Shown: piece after piece, positions 20,610 to 26,779 of the stretch | Numbering within the stretch: the first letter of the stretch is position 1 | Layout: each line of letters begins with the position of its first letter | Assembly (NCBI GenBank): GCA_903840415.1 | Contig: CAIMFY010000013.1 | Coordinates: forward strand, 1 to 59,180 | Length of the DNA: 59,180 nucleotides | Reading direction: 5' to 3' | Origin: an uncultured Opitutia bacterium | GTDB lineage: Bacteria; Verrucomicrobiota; Verrucomicrobiia; Opitutales; Opitutaceae | Notes under the pieces: model-generated | Seen by the model: only the letters and a program-made list of their open reading frames with translations | What the model was told of the DNA's origin: nothing | The model's database searches: none | Position numbers and translations under genes: made by a program

Positions 20610-22946
20610 ATGCCCGAACCCGCGAACCACGCGATCTTCCTCAGCTACGCCCGCGAAGACACCGACGCGGCCCGCCGCATCGCCGATGCGTTGCGCAGCC
20701 ACGGCCTCGAAGTGTGGTTCGATCAAAACGAACTGCGCGGCGGCGACACGTGGGATCAAAAAATCCGCCGCCAGATCAAGGACTGCACGCTGTTCATCCC
20801 GCTCATTTCCGCCAACACCCAGGGCCGCAAGGAAGGCTATTTTCGCCTGGAGTGGAAACTCGCCGTCGAGCGCACGCACCTGATGGCCGAGGGTGTGCCG
20901 TTTCTCACGCCCGTCGTCGCCGACGGCACCACCGAGTCTTCCGCCGTCGTGCCCGCGGAATTCATGCGCGTGCAGTGGACGCGCCTGCCGGGCGCCCTTG
21001 TGACGCCCCAATTCATTGAGCAGATCAAACGGTTGCTCAGCTCGGCGGCGGCGCCCGCAATAGCCGCACACTCCGAATCGACTACACCCCGGCCCGCGCA
21101 CTCACCTGCTCCGGCCCCCACACCAAAATCCAATTTCCCCATCGCGCTCGTCGGGGCCCTCGGCATCGCCGTGCTCGCCCTTGTCGGCTACATCGCACTG
21201 CGCCCCGGCGGAAAAAATTCTCCGCCGCCCGCGGCGATCGCGCCGGCGCCAGCCAATGCCGAATCGAAACTCGCGCCCACCGCCAACGTCCTGAACAAAT
21301 CGATCGCGATTCTCCCGCTCGCCAACATGAGCGACGACAAGGACACCGGCTTCTTCGCCGACGGCGTCCACGAGGATTTGCTCACCAATCTCGCGCTCGT
21401 GCCCGATCTGAAAGTCGTCTCACGCACCTCCGTCATGCAGTATCGCGGCACGACGAAAACGATGAAACAAATCGGCGAGGAGCTCGGCGTTGCCTACGTG
21501 CTTGAGGGCAGCGTGCGTCGTTCCGGCAACAAGGTGCGTGTCACCGGCCAACTCATCAACACGCGCACCGACGAGCACGTCTGGGCCAAGAGCTACGACC
21601 GCGATCTCACGGACATTTTTTCCATCCAAGCCGAACTCTCGCAGGAAATCGCCGGCGCGCTTTCCGCCGCGATTTCGCCGCAGACGCAGAAATTCCTCGA
21701 ACGGAAGCCCACCGAAAATCCCGTTGCCTACGACGACTTCCTTAAAGGCCGTGCCGCGCGGAACAACGCCCGCATTGGCACTCGCCCGGCGCTCGGCGAA
21801 GCCGAAGGTTTTTTCAAAAGCGCAGTCAGTCAGGACGCTCATTTCGCCGCCGCGTGGGGCGAACTCGCCGTCGTCCATGCGCTTTATAATTTCTGGGGTT
21901 ACGACGGCTCAGCCACCCGGCTCGCCGAGGCCGACGCCGCGATCGCTCAAGCCGTCCGGCTCGCGCCCGATGCGCCTGATGTCATCCGCTCGCTCGGCAC
22001 CTACGCTTACTACGCCTACCGCGATTACAGCCGAGCCAACGAACAATACGAAAAGCTCGCCCGCCTTCAGCCCAACGACGCCACGGTGTTTTCCTCGCTT
22101 GGTCTCATTCAACGCCGCCAGGGCCGCTGGGCCGAATCACTGATCAATCTTCGCCGCGCCGCCGAACTCGACCCCCGCAATTTGAGCTATCTGCGCAACC
22201 TGCTCGTGTCGCTCACCTCTGGCCAACGCTGGTCCGAGGCGCGCGCCGTGCGCCAGCAACTCGTCACGTTGTTACCCAACCAACTGCATGAGAAATTCGA
22301 TCTCGCGGGGATCGAGTTTGATGCCACCGGTTCGCTGGCAGCGAGCGAGGATCTGCTCTCCCGGCTCACGCCCGCCGAACGCGATTCACCACCGGCGATC
22401 TATTTCCGCAAAGGTCTGGCCTATTGCCGCGGCGACTACGCCGAGTTCAAGCGCCTCGATCAACTTCAGCCTTCCTTCGAAGAAGAAGAGGAGCCCTCAC
22501 TCTCGGCGCTCATCGCCGGAGGCGTTTATCTTGCCAGTGGTGACAGCGCAGCCCTCCGCGCCCGCATCGCGGGCCCACTGGAGGAATGGCGGGCGCAGGC
22601 GCAACGGGAGCCGACCAACGTCAAAGCCTGGTCGTTCCTGGCCTCGTTCGAGGCGCTCGCCGGCAACAAGGAAGAGGCCCTCCGACTGGCTCGCAAAACC
22701 GTCGAGATGCTTCCGCTTTCGCGAGACGCCGTCGATGGCCCCACCTACCAGTTTGTTCTCGCTTGGGTCTGCGGTGTGACAGGAGACAAAGATCAGGCCG
22801 TCGCAGTGCTTAGCGAGATGCTAAAAGTCCCGTCGAGTTTTTCGGTCGCCAATCTCCGCGTCATCCCCGCTTTCAAATCGCTCCATGGCGATCCGCGGTT
22901 CGAGGCGCTGCTCAACGACCCGAAGAACAACGCTCCGCTGTTCTGA
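20610..22946 (+). CDS. TIR domain / membrane helix / TolB-like (FlgO) / TPR protein
   Basis: A 778-residue protein in four parts. Residues 1-150 are a TIR domain (AIFLSYAREDTDAARRIADAL, GLEVWFDQNELRGGDTW, RLEWKLAVE; the glutamate in RLEW lies where NADase TIRs have their catalytic acid). A membrane helix follows at about 170-195 (FPIALVGALGIAVLALVGYI). Residues of about 230-345 are a TolB-like/FlgO domain (SIAILPLANMSDDKDTGFFADG, AYVLEGSVRRSGNKVRVTGQL). The rest is TPR repeats. This resembles membrane sensor proteins with TIR or cyclase output. Whether it signals, degrades NAD+ or serves in defence cannot be decided here. It stands alone between an aldo/keto reductase and a hydrolase. Confidence 0.85.
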   Translation: MPEPANHAIFLSYAREDTDAARRIADALRSHGLEVWFDQNELRGGDTWDQKIRRQIKDCTLFIPLISANTQGRKEGYFRLEWKLAVERTHLMAEGVPFLTPVVADGTTESSAVVPAEFMRVQWTRLPGALVTPQFIEQIKRLLSSAAAPAIAAHSESTTPRPAHSPAPAPTPKSNFPIALVGALGIAVLALVGYIALRPGGKNSPPPAAIAPAPANAESKLAPTANVLNKSIAILPLANMSDDKDTGFFADGVHEDLLTNLALVPDLKVVSRTSVMQYRGTTKTMKQIGEELGVAYVLEGSVRRSGNKVRVTGQLINTRTDEHVWAKSYDRDLTDIFSIQAELSQEIAGALSAAISPQTQKFLERKPTENPVAYDDFLKGRAARNNARIGTRPALGEAEGFFKSAVSQDAHFAAAWGELAVVHALYNFWGYDGSATRLAEADAAIAQAVRLAPDAPDVIRSLGTYAYYAYRDYSRANEQYEKLARLQPNDATVFSSLGLIQRRQGRWAESLINLRRAAELDPRNLSYLRNLLVSLTSGQRWSEARAVRQQLVTLLPNQLHEKFDLAGIEFDATGSLAASEDLLSRLTPAERDSPPAIYFRKGLAYCRGDYAEFKRLDQLQPSFEEEEEPSLSALIAGGVYLASGDSAALRARIAGPLEEWRAQAQREPTNVKAWSFLASFEALAGNKEEALRLARKTVEMLPLSRDAVDGPTYQFVLAWVCGVTGDKDQAVAVLSEMLKVPSSFSVANLRVIPAFKSLHGDPRFEALLNDPKNNAPLF

Positions 22947-23070: not shown

Positions 23071-24276
23071 ATGACTGCCTATCTTGTCCGCTTCCTTGTC
23101 GCCACTTTCGCCATGCCGACACTCCTATTTTCCCAGTCGCAACTCGATCAGCGGTTGCGCGCCGCCGTCGATCGCAAAGATGTGCCCGGCGTCGTCGTGA
23201 TCGCGGGTGATCGTTCGGGCACGATTTATCAGGGCGCTTTCGGCCTTGCGGAAGCCGGCGCGGGTCGCGCAATGACGGCCGACGCAATTTTCCGCATCGC
23301 CTCGATGACGAAGGCGATCACGGCCACGGCCGCGATGCAGCTCATCGAAGCGCGCAAGCTCTCGCTCGACGATCCCGCGGCGAAATATCTGCCCGAGCTC
23401 GCCCACCCACTGGTGTTCGAATCGTTCGATGCCGCCACCGGCGATTACAAGCTGCGGCCCGCCGCCACGGCGATCACGGTGCGGCAGCTCTTCACGCACA
23501 CGTCGGGGCTGGGCTACACGAACTGGAGTGCCATCCTGAACAAATTCAAACCGCGCGCCGGCGAAACTTACGCCGCCGGGCCGTTGCTCTTCGATCCGGG
23601 CACGCAGTGGACTTATGGCACGGGCACGGACATGCTCGGCAAAATCGTTGAGTCGATTTCTGGCCAGTCGCTCGAAGCCTATTTCCGTGAGCACATCTTC
23701 GCACCACTCGGCATGAACGACACCGCGTTCAACGTCCCCGCCGAAAAACAGGCCCGCATCGTCAACCTCCACCAGCGCACCGCCGACGGCACGCTCGTCG
23801 AACAGCCGCGCAAGCCGCCAACCGTCGCCACGCATTTCAACGGCGGCGGCGGGCTCTACTCGACGGTGGGCGACTATCTGCGCTTCCTTCAGATGATTCT
23901 CAACCAAGGCGAACTTCACGGCGCGCGCATCCTGTCCCGCGAGTCAGTCGCGTTGATGAGTCAGAATCAGATTAGCGCCGTCAGTGTGCGCGCATTGAAA
24001 ACCGCGCAACCCGAACGCAGCAGCGACTTCGCCTTTGTCGATGATGGCCAAGACAAGTGGGGCCTTGGCTTCATGATCACCGCGCGCCACGTCGCCGGCA
24101 AACGCGCCGCGGGCAGCCTTAGCTGGGGCGGCATCGACAACACCTACTACTGGTGCGATCCGACGACCGGTGTGGCGGGCGTGATCATGATGCAGCTGCT
24201 GCCGTTTGCCGACACGAAGGCACTCGGCGTTTACGACACCTTCGAGCGCGGCGTCTACCAGCTGATCGAAAAATAG
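23071..24276 (+). CDS. Serine beta-lactamase-fold hydrolase
   Basis: A 401-residue secreted protein (N-terminal hydrophobic segment MTAYLVRFLVATFAMPTLLF) of the class C beta-lactamase/esterase/DD-peptidase family. The nucleophile motif S78-M-T-K81 lies in FRIASMTKAITATAAM; WTYGTGTDMLG holds the Tyr motif and SWGG the position of KTG. Family members act as esterases, D-aminopeptidases or penicillin-binding-like hydrolases, so antibiotic resistance should not be assumed. The ATG at 23071 starts the signal segment. The TAG stop at 24274-24276 overlaps the target duplication of the mobile element, which leaves the gene intact. Confidence 0.85.
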   Translation: MTAYLVRFLVATFAMPTLLFSQSQLDQRLRAAVDRKDVPGVVVIAGDRSGTIYQGAFGLAEAGAGRAMTADAIFRIASMTKAITATAAMQLIEARKLSLDDPAAKYLPELAHPLVFESFDAATGDYKLRPAATAITVRQLFTHTSGLGYTNWSAILNKFKPRAGETYAAGPLLFDPGTQWTYGTGTDMLGKIVESISGQSLEAYFREHIFAPLGMNDTAFNVPAEKQARIVNLHQRTADGTLVEQPRKPPTVATHFNGGGGLYSTVGDYLRFLQMILNQGELHGARILSRESVALMSQNQISAVSVRALKTAQPERSSDFAFVDDGQDKWGLGFMITARHVAGKRAAGSLSWGGIDNTYYWCDPTTGVAGVIMMQLLPFADTKALGVYDTFERGVYQLIEK

Positions 24277-24283
24277 TCGCCGC
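24276..24283. repeat. Left target-site duplication of the mobile element
   Basis: GTCGCCGC directly abuts the left inverted repeat and matches seven of eight bases of GTCGCCGT at 26772-26779. Its first base is the last base of the hydrolase stop codon. Confidence 0.75.
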
Positions 24284-24298
24284 GGCCCTGTTGCATAA
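24284..24298 (+). repeat. Left terminal inverted repeat
   Basis: GGCCCTGTTGCATAA reads inward and pairs with GGCTTTGTTGCATAA read inward from the other end. It resembles IS903-group termini, which begin GGCTTTGTTG. A small hairpin (GTTCC 24304-24308, GGAAC 24315-24319) lies just inside. Confidence 0.85.
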
Positions 24299-24326
24299 AT
24301 GGTGTTCCGTCCTGGGAACCGACGGG

Positions 24327-25241
24327 TCAAGCAACAGCAGCCGTGGTCGGCGTCACCCAGCGGTTGAGGAGGTGAGCACGAAGCAGCGCCTCGTGCTCCT
24401 GATTACGCTCCAAGCGAGAGCGTAACCGCTGGCCGAAAGCGGATTTAAGGCGGTGCATGGCGGACTCCGCGAGAGATCGTCGGTGGTAACCGACGGCGAC
24501 TTTCCAATCCGGACGCCCGAGGAAGCGAGCCTCCTCAATCGCCCGATTGCGCGCTCGCCATGCCGCGCCTGGATGCAGCACAGCGCGCTTGCCGGGCGGC
24601 GAGATTAAATGTGCTCGGTGTCGCTTGGCGGCGGCGTAGCACCTCCGCCGGTCGTAGGCACCGTCGCCGATGACGACCGCGCCGGGTCGCGGTTGCGCGA
24701 CTGCCAGCACGTCGCCGAGCACTTGACCGTCGTGTTTCTGGCAGGAGGTGACCACGCCGGCGACCACGAGCGAAGTCGTTGGATCAACCCCGAGATGGAT
24801 TTTGCGATACGTGCGTCGCTGCAAGCCATGGACGGTGGTCAGCCAAGTGCCTGGACCGCGGATTTGGAGCCCGGTGGAATCGACCACGACACACCCGCCG
24901 GCCTTCGGCCACGTAGGCAACGCGACGCCCGACCGCCGGCGGCAGAGCGTGGACGGGTCCGGCACGGGCAGCGCCCGAAACCCGGCGAGATCGAGCACCG
25001 AGTGCAGCAAGCCGACGGTCTGACGCAACGGCAACCGATACACCTGCTGCAAGACCAGCCCGAGCGCGATCACCGCCTCCAGATCCACGAGTGGGCGTCC
25101 TTGCTCGCCGGAGGCGAGCGGCTGGTCCCACTTCCTCTCCAGATCGTCGCCGAGGTAAATCGTGAGACTGCCGCGTTGGCGGAGCGCGAGATTATATGCT
25201 TTCCAGTGCGAAACGTGCTTGCCGCAGTGATCTCTTGTCAT
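24327..25241 (-). CDS. IS5-family (IS903-like) DDE transposase
   Basis: A 304-residue transposase that should cut and join the element ends. The N-terminal part has WKAYNLALRQRGSLTIYL, a hallmark of the IS903 group. The DDE triad is complete and falls at D121 (VVVDSTG), D193 (VIGDGAYD) and E259, the positions known for IS903. The E lies in the Y-x2-R-x3-E-x6-K signature (YHRRSLAESAMHRLK). I use the ATG at 25241; a TTG at 25250 would add three residues and run into the intergenic palindrome. The length is normal and no frameshift is seen, so it looks functional. It is divergent from tnpB, 17 bases between start codons. Confidence 0.92.
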   Translation of the reverse strand: MTRDHCGKHVSHWKAYNLALRQRGSLTIYLGDDLERKWDQPLASGEQGRPLVDLEAVIALGLVLQQVYRLPLRQTVGLLHSVLDLAGFRALPVPDPSTLCRRRSGVALPTWPKAGGCVVVDSTGLQIRGPGTWLTTVHGLQRRTYRKIHLGVDPTTSLVVAGVVTSCQKHDGQVLGDVLAVAQPRPGAVVIGDGAYDRRRCYAAAKRHRAHLISPPGKRAVLHPGAAWRARNRAIEEARFLGRPDWKVAVGYHRRSLAESAMHRLKSAFGQRLRSRLERNQEHEALLRAHLLNRWVTPTTAAVA

Positions 25242-25242
25242 A

Positions 25243-25258
25243 GTGTTCAAACGAACAC
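25243..25258. promoter_or_regulatory. Palindrome between divergent transposase and tnpB starts
   Basis: GTGTTC-AAAC-GAACAC, a perfect inverted repeat, fills 16 of the 17 bases between the two ATG codons. Neither gene has room for a normal ribosome-binding site here. It could be a shared operator, part of overlapping promoters for leaderless mRNAs, or a hairpin limiting translation of both genes. Confidence 0.55.
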
Positions 25259-26734
25259 ATGCGGCGCGCTGAACTAAAAGTTGAGGACGAAGCCAAAGCG
25301 GCGGCGCTGCCGCCGCAGACCCTTCGTCGCCGGGTGCGGGCGTCTGGCTGCATGCTGGTGATGCAGGAAGCCGCGGCGCAGGTGCGCAACGACGCGAACG
25401 CCCCGCTGCTGTCGGCGCACCACGCCCGAACGAAGCTGCCGTCGAAGATCGATCTCAAGAAGGAATTGAAGCACGCCCCGACCGCGATCGCCCTCGGGCG
25501 GGCGAAGCAGGTGCAGTATGCCGTGGACGATGCCTACGCGATGGTCGCGTCCTTCCGGAGCAACTTATTTGACTGGATCAAGGACCATTCCTCGCGTTGC
25601 GGTAAACCGAAGCCACCGCAGTTTTATCGGCGCGGCCAACGGGCGCGGCTCCGCTTCGACTACCAGGATTTTACGGTTCTCCACGATCGCCTTTATCTCC
25701 CGGAGTCGCTCGGGCTGGGCGTGATTGCGCTCGTAGATCGCCAAGGCGAACCGCTACTCCAGCCCGGCGACCGGTTGGTCGAGGTGCGAATCGAGCCGTG
25801 CCGCTCCCGGCAGTGGGTCCACGTTGACCTTGTGATCCGGCGCAAGCCCGCGCGGCTGATGCCGCGCCTGCTGCTGCGTGGCAACCTCTTCATCGACCTC
25901 GGCGTGGCTCGCCTCGTCACCTGTCTCGACGACGAAAACCTCCTCGCGTTCTTTGTTAGCGGCGGGGCGGCGAAAGCGATCCTGCAGCGCGGCGCCAAGT
26001 GGCACGCGCAGTTCCGCATCGAATCCAAACTCTGGATTCGGCACGGCAAACGCCGGGCTGGGCAACTGGCGGCGCGAAGTGCCCGCCAAATGGACGACTT
26101 GATGAAGAAAGTGGCGCTGCTGGTCGTGACCTACGCGCAGGTGCATCACCTCGCCCGGGTGGTCGTCGGCCGCAACGTGGACTGGAAGCAAGGTGTGAAC
26201 ATGGGGAAACGCCAGAACCAGACGTTCGCGTTCATCCCGCAGGCGAAGTTAATCGCCGCGCTGCGCACGAAGTGCGCCCGCGCCGGTCTGGAATTTATCG
26301 AGACGGAGGAATCGTACACGTCCAAGACGGACCACCTCGCCGGCGAGGCGATGGGTCCGAAACCGAAGGGGTACCGCTGGCTGGGATCACGTCGCTCGCG
26401 AGGCGACTTTCATTCCAGTGTGGGGTTGCGCCTGCAGGCGGACGTGAACGGTTGCATCGGCCTCGGACGAAAAGTAGGAGGCGAGGAGTGGCTGGCGGAG
26501 TTCCGCCAGAAACTCGGAGCTTCTCCAGGAACTAGGCTAGTTCCTCGGAAAGTTCAGGTGAATGGAGTCGGTCCGGAATCTAAACCGACCGCCGGGACCT
26601 GGCATCACCGCCTGCTGTCCCCCAGAACCTGGATGAGTACGCAAGTTGCACTGGTCAAGGCCCGGCTCATCCCCGACCTCCAGTGTGTTACACCCGTAAC
26701 CCGTAACCCACGGGCGTTCCCCATTGCGGCCTAA
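25259..26734 (+). CDS. tnpB: TnpB-type RNA-guided nuclease without zinc ribbon
   Basis: A 491-residue TnpB/IS605-OrfB family protein. TnpB proteins are Cas12-related nucleases guided by an RNA from the transposon end. The RuvC triad is complete: D213 in LFIDLGVARL, E351 in ETEESYTSKTD, D395 in LQADVNGCIG. VVVGRNVDWKQGVNMGKRQN and FAFIPQAKLIAAL are also family landmarks. No cysteines lie between E351 and D395, so the usual zinc ribbon is absent, as in some Cas12f-like members. The first 60 residues lack the normal N-terminal beta-strand (WED) pattern, so the start may be elsewhere or the domain altered. The last 95 residues after DVNG look unlike protein domains and overlap predicted RNA hairpins. 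It is carried in an IS5-type element, not its usual IS200/IS605 or IS607 setting. Confidence 0.85.
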   Translation: MRRAELKVEDEAKAAALPPQTLRRRVRASGCMLVMQEAAAQVRNDANAPLLSAHHARTKLPSKIDLKKELKHAPTAIALGRAKQVQYAVDDAYAMVASFRSNLFDWIKDHSSRCGKPKPPQFYRRGQRARLRFDYQDFTVLHDRLYLPESLGLGVIALVDRQGEPLLQPGDRLVEVRIEPCRSRQWVHVDLVIRRKPARLMPRLLLRGNLFIDLGVARLVTCLDDENLLAFFVSGGAAKAILQRGAKWHAQFRIESKLWIRHGKRRAGQLAARSARQMDDLMKKVALLVVTYAQVHHLARVVVGRNVDWKQGVNMGKRQNQTFAFIPQAKLIAALRTKCARAGLEFIETEESYTSKTDHLAGEAMGPKPKGYRWLGSRRSRGDFHSSVGLRLQADVNGCIGLGRKVGGEEWLAEFRQKLGASPGTRLVPRKVQVNGVGPESKPTAGTWHHRLLSPRTWMSTQVALVKARLIPDLQCVTPVTRNPRAFPIAA

Positions 26735-26771
26735 CCGCGGCGGGTATCATCCTGGATTATGCAACAAAGCC
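26528..26771 (+). ncRNA. Candidate TnpB guide-RNA scaffold (omega/reRNA)
   Basis: The 3' part of the tnpB frame and the element end hold five inverted repeats: GGAACTAG/CTAGTTCC (26528-26544), GTCGGT/ACCGAC (26567-26589), GGGAC/GTCCC (26594-26621), CCCGT/ACGGG (26700-26714) and GCGG/CCGC across the stop codon (26726-26738). In known systems the TnpB guide RNA comes from this place, overlapping the gene's 3' end and reading through the right end into flanking DNA, which becomes the guide. Here the guide would begin GTCGCCGTTACACC at 26772. Location and structure fit; transcription is inferred. Confidence 0.45.
26757..26771 (-). repeat. Right terminal inverted repeat
   Basis: TTATGCAACAAAGCC on the plus strand is the inverted partner of the left end, with two mismatches at positions 4 and 5 from the tip. 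It lies 22 bases after the tnpB stop and about 1.5 kb from the transposase start, which shows that tnpB is inside the element. Confidence 0.85.
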
Positions 26772-26779
26772 GTCGCCGT
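26772..26779. repeat. Right target-site duplication of the mobile element
   Basis: GTCGCCGT follows the right inverted repeat and matches the left flank in seven of eight bases. Its last T is the first plus-strand base of the downstream dehydrogenase stop codon (TTA, read TAA on the minus strand). Confidence 0.75.

Follow-up and report, generated by a model that had tools for sequence, protein, structure and literature searches.

Can a TnpB RNA-guided nuclease be part of a bacterial transposon that is moved by a DDE transposase? The question is raised by a 59,180-nucleotide stretch of DNA from an uncultured Opitutia bacterium of the Opitutaceae (Verrucomicrobiota; GenBank assembly GCA_903840415.1, contig CAIMFY010000013.1), referred to here over its full length as the window. 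Positions 24284-26771 of the window form one mobile unit, in which genes for an IS5-family DDE transposase (tnpA) and a divergent TnpB (tnpB) lie within a single pair of inverted repeats. A first-pass annotation of the locus had described one repeat pair and an imperfect 8-bp target duplication around both genes, and this arrangement held up: the terminal repeats match GGCNNTGTTGCATAA exactly on opposite strands, the 15-bp ends are near-identical (left, GGCCCTGTTGCATAA; right, GGCTTTGTTGCATAA), and the flanking sequences GTCGCCGC and GTCGCCGT agree at seven of eight positions (coordinates in Table 1). The two long open reading frames (ORFs) that fill the element encode DDE and TnpB domains; neither a Y1 (HUH) TnpA as in IS200/IS605 nor a serine recombinase TnpA as in IS607 was found in them. 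The two genes are arranged divergently with start codons 8 bp apart, so the promoter of each presumably lies inside the other gene (window 25241-25262).

Recurrence and gene content of the composite

Complete units, with both genes open within the same repeats, were found at four sites in three genomes of a small Opitutaceae/Opitutae group, which is the recurrence on which the first-pass annotation had made its reading conditional. A second complete copy lies in the window's own genome (G000, contig C101; 88% identity in the DNA search), another in a congener (G001, contig C69; 78%), and a third in an Opitutae metagenome-assembled genome, or MAG (L043, genome G452; 81%). Each of these three has a perfect 8-bp duplication; that of G452 was read by joining contigs C45 and C7, as C45 alone has its first six bases. 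All four complete copies are about 2.49 kb long and have tnpB inside the repeats, whereas transposase-only plasmid relatives measure about 1 kb. Two arrangements that the first-pass annotation had named as signs of chance adjacency, tnpB always outside the repeats and a tnpA-only element of about 1 kb with its own right end near 25260, were not encountered. The transposase search of G000, G001, and G025 returned no such tnpA-only copy (G452 was searched by end pattern only), and the 12 left ends outside complete copies whose inner side was checked (nine in G001, one each in G025, G452, and G000) are followed by at most a tnpA fragment and then by other sequence or a contig end. G001 also contains many partial copies, several of them cut off where a contig stops, a position in which repeats are expected.

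Beyond these genomes the element was seldom recovered. A scan of GTDB genome contigs gave five loci from 153 candidate stretches: the complete L043, three in G001, and one partial copy (L046) in a permafrost Opitutaceae MAG. Matches were found in three of 95 genomes in the search of relatives (G000, G001, and a 33-residue fragment at a contig end in G025), in two of 372 in the search of the order, and in three of 387 in that of the phylum, where only the window's own genome had the unit. No relative was present among 49 candidate stretches from viral contigs, and the 72 plasmid records with a TnpB match were all below 60% identity, with none covering 80%. By these searches the element is rare and restricted to a small group of Opitutaceae/Opitutae genomes. 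We also looked at the partners of 23 other TnpB loci of the phylum (288 genomes, at most six loci scored per genome) using one Y1, two serine recombinase, and two IS5 queries. Sixteen stood with a Y1 transposase, two with a serine recombinase, and five with neither, and none had an IS5-like transposase in the fetched flanks. The only other genome with an IS5_2 match among 273 of the order (G521) had no tnpB in its 2.55-kb locus, and the pairing was therefore seen in this lineage only.

The tnpA product matched the NCBIfam model IS5_2 (NF033579) at 220.8 bits, against a cut-off of 140, and also Pfam DDE_Tnp_1. Its D124, D196, and E262, which we take from their motifs to be the catalytic three, are numbered in a 307-aa frame with a TTG start and are the same residues as the D121/D193/E259 of the first-pass annotation, which counted from an ATG three codons later and whose residue numbers are correct. 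TnpB scored above the cut-offs of PF07282 and TIGR01766, and the D213/E351/D395 triad previously reported as intact is invariant in all eight aligned TnpBs. The usual RuvC-II glutamate is absent; E351 lies six residues before the zinc-finger position, a placement that corresponds to the 'alternative E' described by Yoon et al. (PMC10711439). A profile search of solved structures returned nothing at an E-value of 0.1. Pairwise ratios of replacement to synonymous change (dN/dS) lay between 0.12 and 0.19 across four copies of tnpA and between 0.18 and 0.22 across five copies of tnpB, one of which is partial. These ratios indicate that both genes are under purifying selection, and the two diverge at similar rates between copies. 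Judged from the sequences of its copies, this is a genuine composite that has moved and continues to be maintained.

Target-site signature and candidate right-end RNA

The left flanks share the motif RTAG (A/G-T-A-G), which was present in 20 of 20 cases with its G either 8 bp (17) or 9 bp (3) before the element. Nineteen of these junctions were collected by homology and one (L155) was added by eye. Right flanks began with G in 15 of 15 cases (14 plus L152). Eight left and right flanks could be paired with a perfect duplication starting at that G, seven of 8 bp and one of 9 bp: C101, C38, C69, C95/C12, C44/C10, C110/C63 (the 9-bp case), C45/C7 of G452, and C98/C8. In the single paired 9-bp case the motif tracks the duplication boundary and not the distance to the left end, and therefore marks where the right end joins the target. 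The motif is one-sided, with TA directly past the duplication in only two of nine paired sites (window and C38). TAG is rare in this DNA, starting at only 0.26% of plus-strand positions in the window. The duplication itself starts with G in 19 of 19 cases and ends with C in 11 of 19 (L155 lies outside this count), ends that may reflect a symmetric preference of the transposase. The counts leave out G452 C45 as a right end (it stops after six bases and pairs with C7), G001 C20 at either end (two flank bases left), and eight pattern matches without homology to the element (L059, L069, L075, L076, L077, L079, L153, and L154), which by eye lack TAG at either spacing.

As a control, we took 15 ends of tnpB-less IS5 relatives on plasmids, whose transposases are 40-44% identical to that of the element, and none had TAG at the 8- or 9-bp position. 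Five plasmids supplied these ends through seven transposase loci, of which two are the same insertion sequence (IS), and one of the 15 was a stray further end in L095. Ends in L101, presumably IS26-like, were omitted, and L102 and L103 were not used, as no end was found there by pattern. Two control sites had 9-bp duplications (GACCTGAGC and GATCAATAT); the remaining control ends have no recognisable duplication, and the control is small for this reason.

An empty site would read RTA-G-N7 and onward, and the right flank of the element reads G-N7 and onward, so that a guide taken from the right flank, or from one base further, matches directly behind RTA or RTAG. This order appears to be the geometry of transposon-associated motif (TAM) plus guide used by TnpB, offset from the left end by the length of the duplication. 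In the comparison with empty sites that the first-pass annotation had proposed, unoccupied loci were found, and base-perfect empty sites were not. The left flank of the window copy matched G001 over only 30 bases and had no match in G025 or G452. The search for unoccupied loci took four joined sites of nine and looked for them in G000, G001, G452, and G025. In G001, contig C59 has the rhodanese-like gene of the C101 site without the element, ending in ...AAAATAG, with another gene in between, and in G000, contig C33 lacks the element at the C44/C10 site. Both were rejected as base-perfect empty sites because their intergenic sequence is not conserved, and are taken as unoccupied loci.

We then considered whether the right end could encode a guide RNA. 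An alignment of 13 right ends folds into hairpins in which 94.9% of cells are standard pairs, compared to 32-44% with the partners slid; the structure was derived from the same alignment used to score it, which favours it. Three pairs changed on both sides. Of these, two lie in a single hairpin, where GTCGC/GCGAC is replaced by GTTAC/GTAAC; they are carried by two of the G000 copies (window and C101) and so perhaps represent one event each. A candidate pseudoknot, GTTGC with GCAAC some 110 nucleotides away, keeps four pairs in 12 of 13 rows and its fifth in 10 of 13; the exception, G001:C12, has no homologous upstream sequence. A pseudoknot is described as conserved among TnpB guide RNAs by Yoon et al. 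(PMC10711439). No Rfam family scored above its gathering threshold in the right-end region. Along tnpB, mean synonymous difference among four copies was 0.45, 0.49, 0.36, and 0.29 in columns 1-60, 61-205, 206-410, and 411 on, and replacement difference in the same ranges was 0.18, 0.09, 0.08, and 0.14. A 3' end with a freer protein and more constrained silent sites is as expected if it also encodes RNA.

Table 1. Features of the element and its flanks in window coordinates.
Feature	Position	Strand	Remarks
Putative TAM, ATAG	24273-24276	+	Its G is base 1 of the target duplication; RTAG in 20/20 left flanks
Left copy of 8-bp target duplication	24276-24283		GTCGCCGC
Left terminal inverted repeat	24284-24298	+	GGCCCTGTTGCATAA
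tnpA	24327-25250	-	IS5-family DDE transposase, 307 aa
tnpB	25259-26734	+	RNA-guided nuclease homologue, 491 aa, D213/E351/D395
Presumed omega RNA scaffold (right-end guide RNA), 3' part	26560-26771	+	Aligned region
Putative guide-RNA pseudoknot, upstream strand GTTGC	26645-26649	+	Within tnpB
Hairpin GTTAC-ACCC-GTAAC	26687-26700	+	Most other copies GTCGC/GCGAC; two compensatory pairs
Hairpin GCGG-CCTAA-CCGC	26726-26738	+	Stem invariant in 13/13 rows; loop contains tnpB stop codon (26732-26734)
Right terminal inverted repeat	26757-26771	-	Contains the 3' strand of the putative pseudoknot, GCAAC (26761-26765, plus strand)
Right copy of target duplication	26772-26779		GTCGCCGT; presumed start of encoded guide

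Several further features were recorded at the locus and among the other copies. The TAG of the putative TAM doubles as the stop codon of an upstream beta-lactamase-like gene. TnpB has a C-terminal extension (about residues 435-491; window 26561-26734) beyond its aligned relatives, which may be the guide-RNA region read through. Upstream, a 778-aa ORF (20610-22946, plus strand) has a start that we take to resemble a TIR domain (FLSYAREDTDAARRI) and seems to continue with repeats. A degenerate copy in the same genome (G000:C38:48497-51910; L004, L003, L157) has a perfect 8-bp duplication, has lost part of tnpB, and is split by about 1.3 kb resembling another IS, the ORF of which resembles an ISAzo13-type transposase. 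At G001:C59:2632-2840 (L042), a pair of left ends point at each other across about 210 bp, with TAG at the outer flank of each, probably a rearrangement or a mini-element. A left-end subfamily in G001 (C95, C59, and C111; L012, L042, and L155) has GTTGCATTAGCTG followed by GTTCCTCC-like sequence, unlike the left end in the window, and still lies at ATAG or GTAG. Four truncated remnants in G001 (C66, C99, C55, and C27; L027, L029, L033, and L038) keep the last part of tnpA and then run into unrelated sequence; they have no right end and yet have RTAG at the outer flank.

Proposed mechanism and competing explanations

We consider it probable, from the sequence features above, that these parts work as one transposon, moved by its transposase and secured by a TnpB that acts on the empty site under a TAM requirement and right-end guidance. 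The IS5-family DDE transposase would do the moving, and processing of the tnpB transcript would yield a right-end RNA with a scaffold that reaches to the right repeat or takes in one further base (the fixed G). With a guide made up of the duplicated target and the right flank, TnpB would cleave DNA that reads RTA(G) followed by the guide. Such DNA would be the empty site, on either a sister or a repaired chromosome, and the occupied copy would serve as the repair template that restores the element. The occupied locus would be spared at both junctions, as the left one offers only 8-9 bp of guide match before the element begins and the right one has the end of the element in place of a TAM. RNA-guided donor-site cleavage, which the first-pass annotation had also proposed, is the step that we infer from the TAM-like flank being in register with a right-end guide. 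The broader view, that the element represents a distinct class of bacterial DDE transposon co-adapted with TnpB, is one we favour only slightly. Here the repeat would double as a pseudoknot strand and the duplication as the start of the guide, and the need for a TAM would impose both the one-sided motif and the orientation of surviving insertions.

A number of observations weigh against this mechanism. In the target-site counts, L155 was accepted from about 30 bases with no BLAST match, five of the eight perfect pairs depend on joining two contigs, 11 of the 20 left ends are unpaired (several being truncated remnants), some ends come from sibling copies, and two spacings were permitted. This transposase may also have an unusual target preference that accounts for the one-sided motif. 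For the nuclease, the guided_TnpB model NF040570 scored 63.9 bits against a cut-off of 100 and PF01385 was also below its own; a C4 zinc finger is absent, as is a full one from the five other aligned TnpBs. Structure prediction for four proteins of the locus gave a pLDDT confidence score of 35. For the RNA, 29 of 500 shuffles reached three pairs changed on both sides and further pair types were not above shuffles, single-sequence folds were not clearly more stable than shuffled ones (z -0.33 to -2.17), and the pseudoknot shows no compensatory change, its GCAAC strand being held by the terminal repeat regardless.

The main rival holds that the transposase alone prefers RTA-G and inserts in one orientation, with TnpB a passenger or in some other role and the TAM-like register a by-product. 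IS5-family transposases can have target preferences, and the G...C ends of the duplication look like a symmetric preference of this kind. Derivatives without tnpB also sit at TAG (the facing left ends in G001:C59 and the truncated remnants), although TnpB acting before decay or in trans would allow this as well. We find this explanation unlikely: the RTA motif is one-sided while the terminal repeats are nearly symmetric, the motif is missing from all 15 ends of the tnpB-less relatives (themselves only 40-44% identical), and tnpB evolves under purifying selection and retains its triad. A second rival is that this TnpB has been repurposed, for example to repress genes under RNA guidance or to attack competing elements, and has given up cutting at the donor site. 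Other roles are described among TnpB-related proteins, as for TldR (PMC13418256), and the missing RuvC-II glutamate, with E351 at an alternative position, would fit such a change. This seems improbable when the triad is invariant in every aligned TnpB, activity in vitro is reported for one ortholog from a clade whose RuvC-II is rearranged (PMC10278001), and the flank signature fits donor-site targeting. Least credible, to a degree that we scarcely entertain it, is a chance adjacency of an ordinary IS5 element of about 1 kb and an unrelated tnpB, or an assembly error. The carrier genomes are multi-contig assemblies, the named ones being MAGs, and 18 of the 23 sampled TnpB loci of the phylum stand with Y1 or serine recombinases. 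Against this, three genomes hold complete units with the same ends, at four sites in all; the duplications immediately border the composite; and both genes diverge at similar rates between copies.

Relation to known TnpB carriers

The element resembles IS200/IS605 in having the TnpB gene at its right end and a TAM-like motif in its left flank. In that family the right end marks the end of the guide-RNA scaffold with the guide encoded outside (PMC10278001), and a guide from beyond the right end and a role for TnpB in element retention are described (PMC10278001, PMC10432273). The present element differs in having a DDE transposase in place of a Y1 TnpA, in being bounded by terminal inverted repeats, and in duplicating 8-9 bp of its target; its TAM-like motif lies one duplication length away from the left end. 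The fixed G at the first right-flank position recalls IS607, for which the fixed first right-flank base of ISXfa1 is reported to belong to the scaffold (PMC10711439); however, the element has target duplications and no serine recombinase. Two of five plasmid TnpB relatives that we opened lie beside an IS607 transposase (in Campylobacter coli, the best plasmid match at 31% identity, and in Segatella copri), and no IS607 recombinase was seen with the other three, one of which is a record without annotation. Capture of tnpB from an IS607-type element, where the scaffold already includes a fixed flank base, is a plausible origin.

On the transposase side, the closest likeness is to the IS5_2 group of the IS5 family (ISPam2, ISRhba5, and others), with DDE transposases 40-44% identical, GGCNNTGTTGCA ends, and 9-bp duplications at two of the sites examined. 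The relatives that we opened differ in being about 1.05 kb long with no tnpB annotated beside them and no TAG at the target. A TnpB-family nuclease on a DDE element with terminal repeats and duplications is otherwise familiar from Fanzor1, which is carried by eukaryotic and viral DDE transposons, for example the IS4-type ESvi-1B with its 8-bp duplications (PMC3627910). The element differs from Fanzors in being bacterial and in its RuvC-I motif, which is DLG in the three aligned copies and not the DPG given for Fanzors (PMC10711439). It also differs from the Fanzor1 DDE elements in that the duplication sequence is variable and the pseudoknot candidate is kept.

No report of TnpB on a bacterial DDE element, whether of the IS5 family or another, came up in our literature search, in which subscription journals were poorly covered. 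A 2023 paper (PMC10711439) states that TnpBs occur only with IS200/605 and IS607 and Fanzors on many transposon types, and asks why; another paper mentions leaving out TnpBs linked to other transposases, and a third classes its 39 TnpB elements from six species as IS605, IS607, or IS1341 (PMC9956272). The element described here is a bacterial counter-example to that restriction. Its anatomy suggests how a TnpB may be fitted to a target-duplicating transposase, with the duplication lying between TAM and element and forming the first part of the guide, and it offers a small, testable system for RNA-guided retention of cut-and-paste elements, with RTA(G) as the predicted TAM. If the broader view of a class co-adapted with TnpB is true, a prokaryotic cut-and-paste transposase that duplicates its target could go together with RNA-guided retention, a parallel to the Fanzor-DDE pairings of eukaryotes.

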